NCBI GenBank assembly: GCA_011389935.1
Contig: JAABTJ010000003.1
Span: 1-64,000, forward strand
Direction: 5' to 3'
DNA length: 64,000 bases
DNA from: Desulfobacteraceae bacterium
GTDB lineage: Bacteria > Desulfobacterota > Desulfobacteria > Desulfobacterales > Desulfosalsimonadaceae
The notes beneath the pieces were generated by a model, which worked only from the letters and a program-made list of their open reading frames with translations, had not been told where the DNA came from and searched no databases. Shown here piece after piece: positions 42,743 through 48,783 of the stretch. The translations under genes and the position numbers were made by a program. Numbering within the stretch: position 1 is the first letter of the stretch; each line of letters opens with the position of its first letter.

Positions 42743-44155
42743 ATGTTTAAAAAAAAACAGAAATTCAACGGATATCGGTTCCAGAAGCTGGCAACGCCGG
42801 ATGCCACCTGGCGGGGATATCAGCAAAAAATGAAAATGCGCGACGAAAAACAGCAGGCGCTGCGCAGAATCCCCTGGTATTTCGTCACGATGGTCATTTT
42901 TGCCGCGTTGATCCATGGCGGATTCCATGCCGCCGAATACCTGCTGCTCTCCCCGTCCAACCAGCAAACATCGATCTATCCGCCGGACGTGACGCCCCTT
43001 GACCGCGCCGAACTGCAAAAAATTCTATCCCCCGGGCGGTTTCACAACCTTACCGAAAAAAACTTTGCGCTCAATACCGGTGACGGTGCATACCAGATAT
43101 ACACAAGCATCAACCCCGGACTGCAAAAGGCCATACTCGACGCGCTTGACACCCGATATGCCAATCGGATCGGCATTGTCGCCATAGAACCCGACACCGG
43201 GCGGGTGCTGGCAATGGTATCGCACAATGCGGACGATCCGGATCAAAATGCCTGTCTTGCGGCCGACCTTCCCGCCGCCAGCCTGTTCAAAATTATCACG
43301 GCAGCGGCCGCCCTGGAAGCAGGGGGCTTTGACGACCAGAGTCGAATGTCTTTTAACGGGGGGAAGTTCACTTTGTACAAAAGACAGCTGCTTGATCAGG
43401 AAAACCGGTATACCAATTATGCCAGCCTGAAATCCGCCTTTGCCGAATCGATCAACCCGGTATTCGGAAAACTCGGGAAAAATGAACTGGGCAAAGACCT
43501 GCTTGTCGACTATGCCGGGGCGTACTGTTTTAACCAGCCCATTGCCTTTGACCTGCCAATGGAACAAAGTACCATGATGATTTCGGATACACCCTATAAT
43601 TGGGCGGAGATCGCCTCCGGATTTAACCGGACGACCACGCTCTCCCCCATGCATGCCGCAATGATCGCCGCATCCATGGTAAACGGCGGCAAAATCGTGG
43701 AACCAACGATTGTCGACGTTGCGGCAAAAGACCACAAAGCCGTATACCGTCGCCGCTCGGCCACGGCCAGACCCGCAGTCGATGCCGCTACGGCAAAGGA
43801 CCTCAACCGGTTGATGAATGCCACCATCACCCAGGGAACAGCAAGAAAGCTGTTTTCAGGGATCTCAAAAGACCCGGTTTTGTCCAGACTCCACATGGGC
43901 GGGAAAACCGGTGCGCTGAATAACAACGCCCGAAAAATCCGGTATGACTGGTTTACCGGTTTTGCAGCCGATCCGGAAGGCACCGGTAAAATTGCCATCG
44001 GCGTCATCGTTGCCCATCAGGACTATATTGGAAAACGGGCGGCCACGTATTTCAGGCAGGCGGTTTCCTGGTATTTTAAGAACAGGCCTGCACCGGCCGA
44101 AAACACGCAAAGGACAAAAGATGTTGCCGGCGAAAACAAAAAAAACCCTGCATGA
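42743..44155 (+). CDS. Penicillin-binding-protein-like transpeptidase
   Basis: 470 residues with one N-terminal membrane anchor (about 44-68) and a transpeptidase domain, but no glycosyltransferase domain. Penicillin-binding motifs are SxxK (SLFK in PAASLFKIITAAAAL), SxN (SIN in FAESINPVF) and KTG (GKTGALNNN). All three are present, so activity is plausible. Preceding features include the YTSINPGLQKAILDAL segment that resembles class A proteins after loss of the glycosyltransferase domain. It lies downstream of metG and overlaps the GlmS-like gene by 35 bp. Likely peptidoglycan cross-linking or carboxypeptidase in the periplasm. Confidence 0.88.
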   Translation: MFKKKQKFNGYRFQKLATPDATWRGYQQKMKMRDEKQQALRRIPWYFVTMVIFAALIHGGFHAAEYLLLSPSNQQTSIYPPDVTPLDRAELQKILSPGRFHNLTEKNFALNTGDGAYQIYTSINPGLQKAILDALDTRYANRIGIVAIEPDTGRVLAMVSHNADDPDQNACLAADLPAASLFKIITAAAALEAGGFDDQSRMSFNGGKFTLYKRQLLDQENRYTNYASLKSAFAESINPVFGKLGKNELGKDLLVDYAGAYCFNQPIAFDLPMEQSTMMISDTPYNWAEIASGFNRTTTLSPMHAAMIAASMVNGGKIVEPTIVDVAAKDHKAVYRRRSATARPAVDAATAKDLNRLMNATITQGTARKLFSGISKDPVLSRLHMGGKTGALNNNARKIRYDWFTGFAADPEGTGKIAIGVIVAHQDYIGKRAATYFRQAVSWYFKNRPAPAENTQRTKDVAGENKKNPA

Positions 44156-47100
44156 AACCATGCGGCTGATACTGTCTTGTATCGCCAGGATATTGAACCA
44201 AAAGGTGTATTTCGGGCGCAGCCCGGCCCTTGTGCCGGAAAATGCCGTCATCTTTTTTCCGTACCACGCCGGTCGTCTCTCGTGCGGATTTACCGGTCTT
44301 ATCGCCTTCAACCCGGAGAAACGGCCGTCGGCATCCATCGACGCAGCGGATTTGCGAACCCGCATCGAGCGGGCCGGCAAAAACGGCTTTTCCGCATGCG
44401 CAAACCTGCCGCCGGACGATTTCATCGCCGGATACCTTGGCGGCGAAGACCACGTGCTGCAACTCTTTGCGGCGGTTCAGGCCTTGAAGCAAAACGACAA
44501 CTTCCACCGCATTTACAGCGACCCCGCAATTTTCGACGGGCTTTCCCAAGGAACCGCGGAGCTAAAGGCCTTAATTCAGACAGAATCCCGGCATCTGGGG
44601 GAGCAGATGGGCGTTATCTCCTCGCTCCAGTTTGACGCCATGTCCATGCGGATTGAAAAACTGAAAGATGCCGCGTGGTGCCTGGAAACGGAGATCCTTC
44701 AAAACATTCTTCGGGTACGGGATCTCGCAGGGGACTCAAAAGCGGAGATGAATGTGTTTGGCATATCCGCGGCCCGGCAGATCAACGCCGTTTTAAACTC
44801 CATCGATCGCCTGGAAGTCCGCGGCCGGGATTCCGCCGGCATTTCCCTCCTGTTCGTGGTCGATGACAAGACCTACACCGCCTTTATCGACGACATTTCC
44901 TCGGCAGGGGACTACGAACCGTTCACCGCGCGAACGAACCGGGAGGTCCTTACCGGCCAGGGGATCTCCATCAACCGGGACGGCAGCAATACCGCCATTG
45001 CCATGACCTACAAGGTCGCGGCCGAAATCGGATCCCTGGGCGACAACATCCGCTCCATACGGGAGCAGATAAAAAGCGATCCCCTGTTTTCCGCAATCAT
45101 TTCGCGCCCCCGCCTTTTTTTCACGGTTTCGGCGCATACCCGCTGGGCCTCGGTAGGCGCCATCAACGAGGCCAACTGCCATCCCTTAGACAACCGGACC
45201 ATGACCTCGGTATCCACCCATACGGGAATCATTCACGTCTGCCTGAACGGCGACATCGACAACTACCAGGAACTCAAAGCAGACCATGAAAAGCGCGGCG
45301 TCCGCTTTTTCGACGACATCACCTGCGACACCAAGATCATCCCCGTGCATATCGAATACTACTGCAAGCAAGGATACACGGTGGAAGAATCCTTCCGGCT
45401 GGCGGTCAATGATTTTGAAGGCTCCCATGCCATATCCATGCACACGGATTTGGCCCCGGGAAAATTTTTCCTGGCGCTCAAGGGGAGCGGGCAGGCGATT
45501 TTTATCGGCCTTGCCCCGGACCATTACATCCCCACCTCCGAAGTCTACGGGTTTGTCGAGGAAACATCGATGTTTCTCAAAATGGACGGGGAAGCGGTCA
45601 ACCCCTCCGGCAAGGCAAAAAGCGTCAGCGGCCAGATATGCATCATCGACCAATCAGGCAAAGGCGGCATAAACGGCATCAGGGGCATGTATTACTGCGG
45701 CGCCCCCATCCCTTTCAGCGATGCGGACATTCGAACGACCCAGCTGGTTTCCCGGGATATCGACCGCCAGGATTTCAACCACTATTTTTTAAAGGAAATC
45801 TCAGAAGCCCCGGGCTCGGTGAGAAAAACGCTGGCCAACCGGTGGCGGCTCTCGGAAAATGAAAAAGGCCGGTATTATGAAATTCACCTGGACGATACCT
45901 GCGTACCGGTATCTGTCCGAACGGCGCTTTCCAAAAACCGGATACGGCGGATCGCCTTTATCGGACAGGGGACCGCAGGGGTTGCCGCCCATGTCTGCGC
46001 CAACCAGCTGCGCCATTACATCGGGGATACGGATATCCGGATTGACGCCATGAAATCTTCAGAACTCAGCGGATTCATGGTTCACGACGGCAAAACCGGC
46101 AGCATGGACGACACGCTTTTGGTCCCCATCAGCCAATCCGGCACCACAACGGATACCAACCGCACCGTCGACATGGTCCGGAAGAAAGGCGGCAAAATCA
46201 TCTGCATCGTCAACCGCCGGGATTCGGACCTGACCTTCAAGAGTGACGGGGTGATCTATACGAGCTCCGGGCGGGATATAGAAATGTCGGTTGCCTCGAC
46301 CAAGGCGTTCTACTCCCAGATCATCGCCGGTGCCATCCTCGGGCTTTTTATCGCCGCTTTCACCAAAAAACGGGGGGGGCGCTTCATATCCAGCGAAATC
46401 CAGGAAATGATCGGCATACCGGACATGATGGAAAGGGTCCTTTCCATGACCGATCAGATCAAGGCCTCCGCCAACCGTCTGGCATTGCAGCGCACTTACT
46501 GGGCCGTCGTGGGAAGCGGCCCCAACAAGGCCGCGGCCGACGAAATCCGGATCAAGCTGAGCGAGCTGTGCTACAAGACCATATCCTCGGACTACGTGGA
46601 GGACAAAAAGCACATCGATCTTTCCAGCGAACCCCTGATCATCGTCTGCGCGGCGGGCACGCCCAGGCGCGTGCTGGGCGATATCGTCAAGGACACGGCC
46701 ATTTTCAAATCCCACAAGGCCCTTCCCGTGGTGATCTGCGATGCGCACGAGGACCGGTTCACCCCCTATGCCGAAGACGTGTTCCACGTGCCGCAGACAA
46801 ACGAACATTTCGCCCCCATATTGAATACGCTGGTCGGCCATATATGGGGGTACTACGCCGCGCTCGCCATCAACGAGGGCTCAAAATTCCTCCATGACTT
46901 CCGGGAGGAGATACAGGCGCTGATCCGGACATGCACGAACAACCATCTGGATATTTTCGAAATCGCCCTCGAAGAAACGTTCCGGGAAAAAATTCTGCAG
47001 TTTTACCGCGAGTTTCGGCGAATGCAGCAGGAAAACCGCCTCCCCGGCACCATCGGGCTCAAGGGGGCGACCAACCTGACGCTTCTGCTCAAGTATCTCG

Positions 47101-47867
47101 CCGGACGCCTGCCGGTCAATGATTTTGAATTCGATTTCGGCGTCAAGGGGACGGCCAAAAACATGTTCGCCCTGTTTTTCGATGCCATAGGGGAGTCCAT
47201 CAACGCCATGGCGCGCCCGGTGGACGCCATCAAGCACCAGGCAAAAACCGTCACGGTGGGGACCAGCCGGATCGAGGAAAAAGCCGAAGGCCTGCTGTTT
47301 GACATCCTTTCGGAAAAAGGGTTCGGCATTGACCACCTGAGTCTCACCAACGTGATGGTGCTGCGCAATATCCAGAAGATTCTTTCGGGCATCCGGGGAT
47401 TGACCCTGTACCGGGTCTCGGGCGTGAACCTCTTGGGAGAACCCACAGACGAGACCACCATCACCGTGGTTGAAAAAGAAGGGACGTCCGCATCCATACC
47501 GTCGCGCAGCGAAACTGACCAGGCACTCAAGGGGTCCAAGCGAATTATCGTTCGCCAGGGGAACATCTATCTCGGAAAGGGGAGAAAGGACGACCGCTCG
47601 GTTCTGATTATCCCCATCATCTCGAGCGACCCGGCGCACCCCAACATGATCGAGCACCTATTGCTCCTGGAAGTGGCCTTCAAAACCGACGTGGACCTTG
47701 CCACCCGGGTCAAGGCGCTTGGCGGCAAGCACGAGCATATCAAGAACATCGTCCAGGAAAACTCCGTCACCTGGAAGGACGAGTACCTGGACATGGTCCC
47801 CATGGACGATCTATTCGGCCGCTCCGCGGAAAAAATCGCCGAAATGATCATAGAAAAAATCGGTTGA
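44121..47867 (+). CDS. Giant GlmS-like amidotransferase/SIS protein (1248 residues)
   Basis: About twice the length of GlmS (near 610). Order: leader 1-54; CGFTGLIAF at Cys55, matching the CGIVG nucleophile start of class II amidotransferases; a mostly helical insertion about 65-215; the rest of the glutaminase fold (RLEVRGRDSAG at 230-240, HTRWASVGAINEANCHP at 339-355, NGDIDNYQELK); the GlmS-type linker FLKEISEAPGSV; SIS1 about 605-740 with SQSGTTTDT and SVASTKAF; SIS2 about 790-900; and about 350 unrecognised C-terminal residues. If Cys55 is the nucleophile, the leader must be cleaved. It overlaps the transpeptidase gene by 35 bp, and the ATG at 44121 has AAGGA. Amino-sugar synthesis is an inference; no equivalent is known to me. 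Confidence 0.85.
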   Translation: MLPAKTKKTLHETMRLILSCIARILNQKVYFGRSPALVPENAVIFFPYHAGRLSCGFTGLIAFNPEKRPSASIDAADLRTRIERAGKNGFSACANLPPDDFIAGYLGGEDHVLQLFAAVQALKQNDNFHRIYSDPAIFDGLSQGTAELKALIQTESRHLGEQMGVISSLQFDAMSMRIEKLKDAAWCLETEILQNILRVRDLAGDSKAEMNVFGISAARQINAVLNSIDRLEVRGRDSAGISLLFVVDDKTYTAFIDDISSAGDYEPFTARTNREVLTGQGISINRDGSNTAIAMTYKVAAEIGSLGDNIRSIREQIKSDPLFSAIISRPRLFFTVSAHTRWASVGAINEANCHPLDNRTMTSVSTHTGIIHVCLNGDIDNYQELKADHEKRGVRFFDDITCDTKIIPVHIEYYCKQGYTVEESFRLAVNDFEGSHAISMHTDLAPGKFFLALKGSGQAIFIGLAPDHYIPTSEVYGFVEETSMFLKMDGEAVNPSGKAKSVSGQICIIDQSGKGGINGIRGMYYCGAPIPFSDADIRTTQLVSRDIDRQDFNHYFLKEISEAPGSVRKTLANRWRLSENEKGRYYEIHLDDTCVPVSVRTALSKNRIRRIAFIGQGTAGVAAHVCANQLRHYIGDTDIRIDAMKSSELSGFMVHDGKTGSMDDTLLVPISQSGTTTDTNRTVDMVRKKGGKIICIVNRRDSDLTFKSDGVIYTSSGRDIEMSVASTKAFYSQIIAGAILGLFIAAFTKKRGGRFISSEIQEMIGIPDMMERVLSMTDQIKASANRLALQRTYWAVVGSGPNKAAADEIRIKLSELCYKTISSDYVEDKKHIDLSSEPLIIVCAAGTPRRVLGDIVKDTAIFKSHKALPVVICDAHEDRFTPYAEDVFHVPQTNEHFAPILNTLVGHIWGYYAALAINEGSKFLHDFREEIQALIRTCTNNHLDIFEIALEETFREKILQFYREFRRMQQENRLPGTIGLKGATNLTLLLKYLAGRLPVNDFEFDFGVKGTAKNMFALFFDAIGESINAMARPVDAIKHQAKTVTVGTSRIEEKAEGLLFDILSEKGFGIDHLSLTNVMVLRNIQKILSGIRGLTLYRVSGVNLLGEPTDETTITVVEKEGTSASIPSRSETDQALKGSKRIIVRQGNIYLGKGRKDDRSVLIIPIISSDPAHPNMIEHLLLLEVAFKTDVDLATRVKALGGKHEHIKNIVQENSVTWKDEYLDMVPMDDLFGRSAEKIAEMIIEKIG

Positions 47868-47868
47868 C

Positions 47869-48783
47869 ATGGTACTGAACACCCTTTTCCCGGTTTTTGC
47901 GGTCATTTTTCTGGGCAGTGGTTTAAAAGCCGCCGGGTTTGTCTCCCGGGAATTCTTTTCTTCCTCGGACCGGCTCGTTTATTATATCCTCTTCCCGGCC
48001 ATGCTTTTCTGGAAAATCGGCACCGGCCAACCGTCGTCCGGGGTAGACCTTTCCCTGTTCGCCGCCGCCCTGTGCGCCGTGCTGCTGGTGTTTGCCATAA
48101 GCACGCTGTATATTATTCTCTCCGGCATGCCTACCTTCCAGGCGGGCAGTTTTTCCCAGAGCTGCTACCGTTTCAACACCTATATCGGCATGGCCATCAT
48201 TCAAAAGACGACCGGTGATGAAGGGGTTGTCCTGTTTGCCGTTATGATCGGGTTTATCATTCCGGTAATCAACCTTCTGTCCGTTTCCATTCTGATCTGG
48301 TTTTCCGGAAAATCCTATCGGCCGGCGGAAAAGCTCCGGCATCTTGTTCGGGCGATCATCACCAACCCCATTATACTGGGCTGCTTTGCCGGAATCGCGT
48401 TTTCCTTGACCGGCCTGGCTCTTCCCCTGTTTATCGACAACACGCTGTCCCTTGTTTCCATGCTCACGCTCCCCCTTGCGCTGATTTCCATCGGCAGCGC
48501 ATTCTCCTTTTCAAAGATCGAAGGGTATCTGCTGCCTTCGGTGGCTGCGGCCATGTGCAAACTGCTCCTGCTGCCGGCGGCGGGCCTCTTTTTCATGACA
48601 TGGTTTTCCATCACCGGCCCCGCATTTCAAACCGGAATCATCTTTTTCTGTCTTCCTACGTCTACGGCCATCTACGTACTGTCTTCCCAGATGAACAGCG
48701 ACACGGAACTGGCATCCGCCTCAATCGTTGTCTCAACGCTTTTTTCCGTTATTTCTCTCTCCGCAGCCCTTGCGCTGACGTGA
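47869..48783 (+). CDS. AEC-family (auxin efflux carrier-like) transporter
   Basis: 304 residues with about ten hydrophobic membrane segments and an internal five-plus-five arrangement, as in the AEC/BASS-related permease family (VFAVIFLGSGLKAAGF at the N-terminus, a GCFAGIAFSLTGLALP segment at the start of the second half, and LPLALISIGSAFSF). Bacterial members carry malonate, malate or other small organic anions. It starts one base after the GlmS-like stop codon, so it is co-translated with that unusual protein. Substrate unknown. Its position raises the idea that it exports or imports a product related to that enzyme. Confidence 0.85.
   Translation: MVLNTLFPVFAVIFLGSGLKAAGFVSREFFSSSDRLVYYILFPAMLFWKIGTGQPSSGVDLSLFAAALCAVLLVFAISTLYIILSGMPTFQAGSFSQSCYRFNTYIGMAIIQKTTGDEGVVLFAVMIGFIIPVINLLSVSILIWFSGKSYRPAEKLRHLVRAIITNPIILGCFAGIAFSLTGLALPLFIDNTLSLVSMLTLPLALISIGSAFSFSKIEGYLLPSVAAAMCKLLLLPAAGLFFMTWFSITGPAFQTGIIFFCLPTSTAIYVLSSQMNSDTELASASIVVSTLFSVISLSAALALT

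Follow-up and report, generated by a model that had tools for sequence, protein, structure and literature searches.

A double-size GlmS-like protein, probably made as a pro-enzyme, that appears to replace canonical GlmS in Desulfobacterales, Syntrophales and their relatives

The giant GlmS-like gene and its domain layout

The window, a stretch of 64,000 nucleotides at the start of contig JAABTJ010000003.1 of a Desulfobacteraceae bacterium (GCA_011389935.1), carries at 44121-47867 on the forward strand an uninterrupted open reading frame of 1248 codons. Its start shares 35 bases with a transpeptidase ORF (42743-44155) and an AEC carrier gene begins at 47869, one base past its end, as the first-pass annotation had described. 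The overlapping gene encodes a 470-residue transpeptidase with a PBP2-like domain that stays under every NCBIfam cut-off, and its position at the start of the giant glmS is kept in relatives. A glmS ribozyme or other RNA element was looked for between 38000 and 50000; nothing reached the Rfam gathering score.

Pfam matches of the encoded protein are SIS and GATase_6, and in the PDB it is closest in sequence to E. coli GlmS (best hit) and human GFAT-1. The NCBIfam GlmS model matches with E = 8e-63; together with the best PDB match and the alignment of 80 full-length proteins encoded on separate contigs, this excludes a chance match. The score of 213 bits does not reach the TIGR01135 equivalog cut-off of 418 and therefore we file the giant form as a sister clade rather than as a member of TIGR01135. 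A weak similarity to the NagB-II deaminase model was also seen in the NCBIfam search. The features of the gene are listed below, with E. coli GlmS residues in brackets.

44121..47867 (+), giant GlmS-like gene: 1248 codons, class-II glutaminase and two SIS domains
44121..44201 (+), residues 1-27, variable N-terminal stretch: under little constraint, with dN near dS
44202..44282 (+), residues 28-54, leader core hhYhGR.P..VP..ShIhFP.....l, proposed propeptide: from conservation, dN/dS and spacing
44283..44285 (+), Cys55 codon, proposed N-terminal nucleophile after processing: invariant in 90/90, and the second codon of the gene in eight leaderless members
44313..44756 (+), helical insertion of about 150 residues between strand 1 and helix 1 of the glutaminase fold: from alignment with canonical GlmS and AlphaFold2
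44859..45125 (+), second glutaminase-domain stretch, exceeding that of canonical GlmS by about 60 residues and containing a conserved LGDN: from alignment
45135..45152 (+), HTRWAS glutamine-binding motif, H339-S344: from PDB profile match and residue conservation
45246..45329 (+), oxyanion pair N376-G377 to D403 (N98, G99, D123): from residue conservation
45945..46334 (+), first SIS domain: Pfam PF01380
46458..46865 (+), second SIS domain with K812/E815/H831 (K485/E488/H504): from structure match and residue conservation
46875..47216 (+), helical insertion of about 115 residues ahead of the catalytic C-tail: from models and alignment
47217..47270 (+), displaced catalytic C-tail PVDAIKHQAKTVTVGTSR with K1042 (Lys603): invariant in 90/90, and here the superposition extends to the C-terminus of GlmS
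47286..47864 (+), C-terminal alpha/beta domain with a weak PAS/GAF likeness and a proposed regulatory role: from a model of the C-terminal part

The AlphaFold2 model (pLDDT 84.5, pTM 0.74) places a helical insertion at residues ~75-202, after which come the glutaminase fold and the two SIS domains. The model, which covers residues 28-1227, matches E. coli GlmS (1jxa) with Z 40.8 over 586 residues, model residues 189-1019 lying on chain residues 9-606; the matches to the isomerase domain of GlmS (3tbf; Z 40.8, with an rmsd of 2.3 across 348 residues) and to human GFAT-1 (6r4h; Z 41.1) are similarly close. A glutaminase joined to a double-SIS fold is thus recovered at Z about 41 for both E. coli GlmS and human GFAT-1. 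The leader and the first strand are modelled with low confidence (block pLDDT 57-71), so that the placement of Cys55 in the active site is not given by the model. The ORF, alignment and model confirm the earlier description of a 1248-residue GlmS-like protein with two SIS domains and Cys55 within a CGFTG motif, and likewise its insertion of about 150 helical residues in the glutaminase domain; the second insertion, about 60 residues long, falls between RLEVRGRDSAG and HTRWAS.

The C-terminus had been called unrecognised, which holds in part. Its ~330 residues consist of the ~115-residue helical insertion, the C-tail PVDAIKHQAKTVTVGTSR, whose K1042 corresponds to the catalytic Lys603, and then about 200 residues of alpha/beta domain that are indeed without a credible match. 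Modelled alone (pLDDT 87), the C-terminal part forms a helical bundle followed by this domain. By sequence the domain gave neither a Pfam match at a credible E-value nor a PDB profile match, and by structure it is weakly matched to PAS/GAF domains (Z about 6-7, best Foldseek E 0.03); naming it from these matches was dropped because they are too weak. Among the genomes searched, this C-terminus occurs only in proteins of the giant-GlmS kind. Our guess is that the domain is regulatory, and the extra helical and C-terminal domains taken together are probably regulatory or oligomerising.

The domain order, the fold and all catalytic residues are those of canonical GlmS/GFAT (TIGR01135; 1jxa, 6r4h). 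However, known GlmS subunits, in which Cys1 is the N-terminal residue, are reported to have 589-716 residues (PMC9272926), whereas the giant form is twice that size and differs by a leader before the nucleophile, the ~150- and ~60-residue glutaminase insertions, the ~115-residue insertion before the C-tail, the ~200-residue C-terminal domain, fixed sugar-site changes and a score far under the family cut-off.

Catalytic residues and the leader before Cys55

All GlmS catalytic residues are invariant in the 90 long-form proteins. The glutaminase set (Cys1, Arg73, Trp74, Asn98, Gly99 and Asp123) is complete in every one of the 90 rows, as are the isomerase residues K812 (Lys485), E815 (Glu488), H831 (His504) and K1042 (Lys603). 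Cys55, the equivalent of Cys1, is present in 80/80 aligned full-length proteins and in 90/90 when added members are counted. Catalytic or binding roles of the compared residues other than Cys1, Glu488, His504 and Lys603 are those which we take to be general knowledge. Only four of the sugar-site residues that were tested deviate from canonical GlmS, namely C300 (Q/H), S303 (A), E351 (T) and S347 (S/T). Cys1, Glu488, His504 and Lys603 are catalytic residues of GlmS (PMC9272926). One option raised earlier, a dead glutaminase, is contradicted by the invariance of Cys55 and of the whole glutamine site in 90/90 and was rejected.

Residues 28-54 ahead of Cys55 are conserved, with P47 in 76/76, F46 in 73/76 and G32 in 75/76 leadered rows, and the spacing from the proline to the Cys is seven residues in 70 of the 76. 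In this core dN lies well below dS in most pairs, which is not so for residues 1-27, and the sequence comparisons indicate that the core is under purifying selection. The residue preceding the Cys is variable (Cys, Ser, Asn, Phe and others). An internal start right before Cys55 was rejected, as that codon is never ATG, GTG or TTG in leadered members.

Eight members are leaderless, and the tree puts them in two or three separate places. Three of them (L116, L117 and L121) begin ATG-TGC, that is Met-Cys, and in L121 the upstream gene has its stop codon three bases ahead of the ATG. The other five (L155-L158, L160) form a divergent subfamily of ~1133-1160 residues and start at the same Cys, with ATG-TGC except for GTG-TGC in L155. 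Since these proteins start at the Cys, Cys55 would act as the N-terminal residue and the leadered forms would need cleavage.

Members of the MEROPS C44 family include precursors of PurF and glutamate synthase that process themselves (PMC5753285), and PurF leaders are reported to be removed autocatalytically (PMC7056826; PMC5753285). In the manner of this family, the giant form has a conserved Cys behind a translated and conserved leader. The likeness to B. subtilis-type PurF and glutamate synthase (MEROPS C44) lies in an Ntn glutaminase whose Cys sits behind a short leader. The synthase half is different, being a phosphoribosyltransferase or glutamate synthase there and a SIS half here, and the giant GlmS leader has a 27-residue core of its own with an FP motif and a cleavage that is so far a proposal.

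The leaderless relatives and the conservation of the leader give strong support to the suggestion that its removal exposes Cys55, in the way of PurF and glutamate synthase. Both parts of the refuting check set out earlier also favour a processed amidotransferase, Cys55 being invariant and the search of the genome for a normal glmS being negative. The giant GlmS is thus, judging from sequence, very probably made as a pro-enzyme whose leader is cleaved. It is unlikely that the protein is instead an active glucosamine-6-phosphate synthase that retains its leader and either uses Cys55 internally or takes free ammonia. Conservation of the leader would also fit such a permanent structural role; however, an ammonia-only enzyme would not need the glutamine-site residues, all of which are invariant, and the leaderless relatives have the same Cys at the N-terminus. 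A literature search for a propeptide in GlmS, or for work on the GlmS enzymes of these bacteria, returned no relevant paper. To our knowledge no other GlmS requires a propeptide, and none was found in the papers searched.

Distribution and apparent replacement of canonical GlmS

A reference-genome scan gave 97 relatives, of which 80 were kept, mostly from Desulfobacterales and Syntrophales. The giant clade comprises proteins of about 1130-1300 residues from Desulfobacterales, Syntrophales and relatives, and in the tree the long forms make up one side of a branch separate from canonical GlmS (SH-aLRT 100). The window protein is matched in 56 of 60 relatives of its genome, nearly always by a long form, some of these genes being fragmented on broken contigs.

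In the phylum, the long form occurs in 50 of 395 genomes. Canonical glmS is missing from 49 of these 50 and is present in 310 of the 345 genomes without the long form, or 311 overall; a single genome (G240) holds both. Fisher's test for this exclusion gives p about 2e-38, a value overstated because the genomes are related. The first-pass annotation had proposed looking for a normal-length glmS in the window genome, and the TIGR01135 profile search found none above the cut-off, although at 94% completeness the absence alone is no proof. Only one of the 60 same-order genomes (G040) scores above the GlmS cut-off, and there the window protein matches nothing but that canonical GlmS. Incompleteness of metagenome-assembled genomes can account for single absences, not for the overall pattern. 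Neither long nor canonical GlmS was found in some genomes, among them the nearly complete G055, G305, G326 and G383, and a broad profile was also negative in them.

Genus g33 contains a case of exchange. In G404 the syntenic site (L184, G404:C42) has the long gene reduced to its first 63 codons, the rest being missing between two flanks that are 87-88% identical, and a canonical glmS encoding 608 residues lies on another contig; G058 and G423 of the same genus keep the whole long form. The relic and the canonical gene together show that a canonical glmS is able to supplant the long form.

The order PSP1-MetG-transpeptidase-giant GlmS is kept in the family of the window genome. The AEC neighbour is limited to the nearest genus and was rejected as a functional clue. 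In Syntrophales and relatives, a GlmU-type acyltransferase gene lies near the giant gene at 25 loci, glmM at 8 loci and pyrG (CTP synthase) also occurs nearby. An unusual amino-sugar or cell-envelope pathway, proposed earlier from the neighbours, finds no support here; the conserved GlmU-type acyltransferase, GlmM and PyrG neighbours point to the ordinary UDP-GlcNAc route. The window genome encodes a GlmM (564 bits) beside a GlmU-type acyltransferase gene, with a separate uridylyltransferase gene. GlmU is apparently split in this genome (G000:C7:59305-60030 and C16:24390-25028; L153, L154) into a stand-alone uridylyltransferase and an acyltransferase-like protein adjoining glmM.

A second giant GlmS-like ORF of ~1500 residues (L165; L003) is present in the window genome at G000:C13, about 44.6-48.5 kb. 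It starts Met-CGIVAYFG, has altered HGRWAL and NGQFSS motifs and carries the C-tail RNRAKSVTAG. Like the window protein it is a large glutaminase/SIS protein with an AKSVT motif in the C-tail; unlike it, it begins Met-Cys without a leader, has other insertions and partly changed glutamine-site motifs, and is rarer, its type occurring in about ten of the 60 relatives. It could contribute to GlmS function in this genome.

Proposed function and significance

The window protein, judged on its sequence, very probably works like GlmS, and it is highly probable that it is a functional GlmS that both replaces the canonical enzyme and is made as a pro-enzyme. We infer the cleavage, the cutting agent, the enzyme activity and the roles of the extra domains. 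The giant GlmS would be the essential glucosamine-6-phosphate synthase of the cell, synthesised with a leader. Removal of residues 28-54 and anything before them, probably by PurF-like self-cleavage, would leave Cys55 as the N-terminal nucleophile. Cys55 would free ammonia from glutamine, the ammonia would move to the SIS half, and K1042 on the displaced C-tail would act with E815 and H831 in turning fructose-6-phosphate into glucosamine-6-phosphate.

The fixed changes C300Q/H, S303A and E351T, and the L165-type ORF in the window genome, would also suit an amidotransferase that makes another amino sugar from another ketose phosphate, with glucosamine-6-phosphate supplied by L165 or by NagB in reverse. 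This is very unlikely, as the window type is found in nearly all of the 60 relatives against about ten for the L165 type, canonical GlmS takes the place of the long form in G404, and the neighbours are GlmM and GlmU-type genes. A pseudo-amidotransferase, with a dead glutaminase fused to SIS domains, a sensing or deaminase role and a canonical GlmS elsewhere, would agree with the low equivalog score and the NagB-II similarity but is scarcely credible against the invariant Cys55 and glutamine site, the lack of canonical glmS in 49/50 genomes and the pathway neighbours.

GlmS makes the first committed amino-sugar precursor of peptidoglycan and is a drug target (PMC9272926). In many sulfate-reducing and syntrophic bacteria, a GlmS of double size appears to replace the normal enzyme rather than to add to it. 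Chances are about even that the giant forms constitute a new, self-processing GlmS class of twice the usual size that has displaced canonical GlmS in several bacterial orders and is marked by a leader of its own, a relocated catalytic Lys tail and a C-terminal sensor domain governing how amino sugars enter the cell wall. The naturally leaderless and replaced versions offer material for comparison. If our reading is true, the sole GlmS of the clade is a pro-enzyme of ~1200 residues, which would explain why the standard GlmS model scores genomes of this clade as being without glmS.
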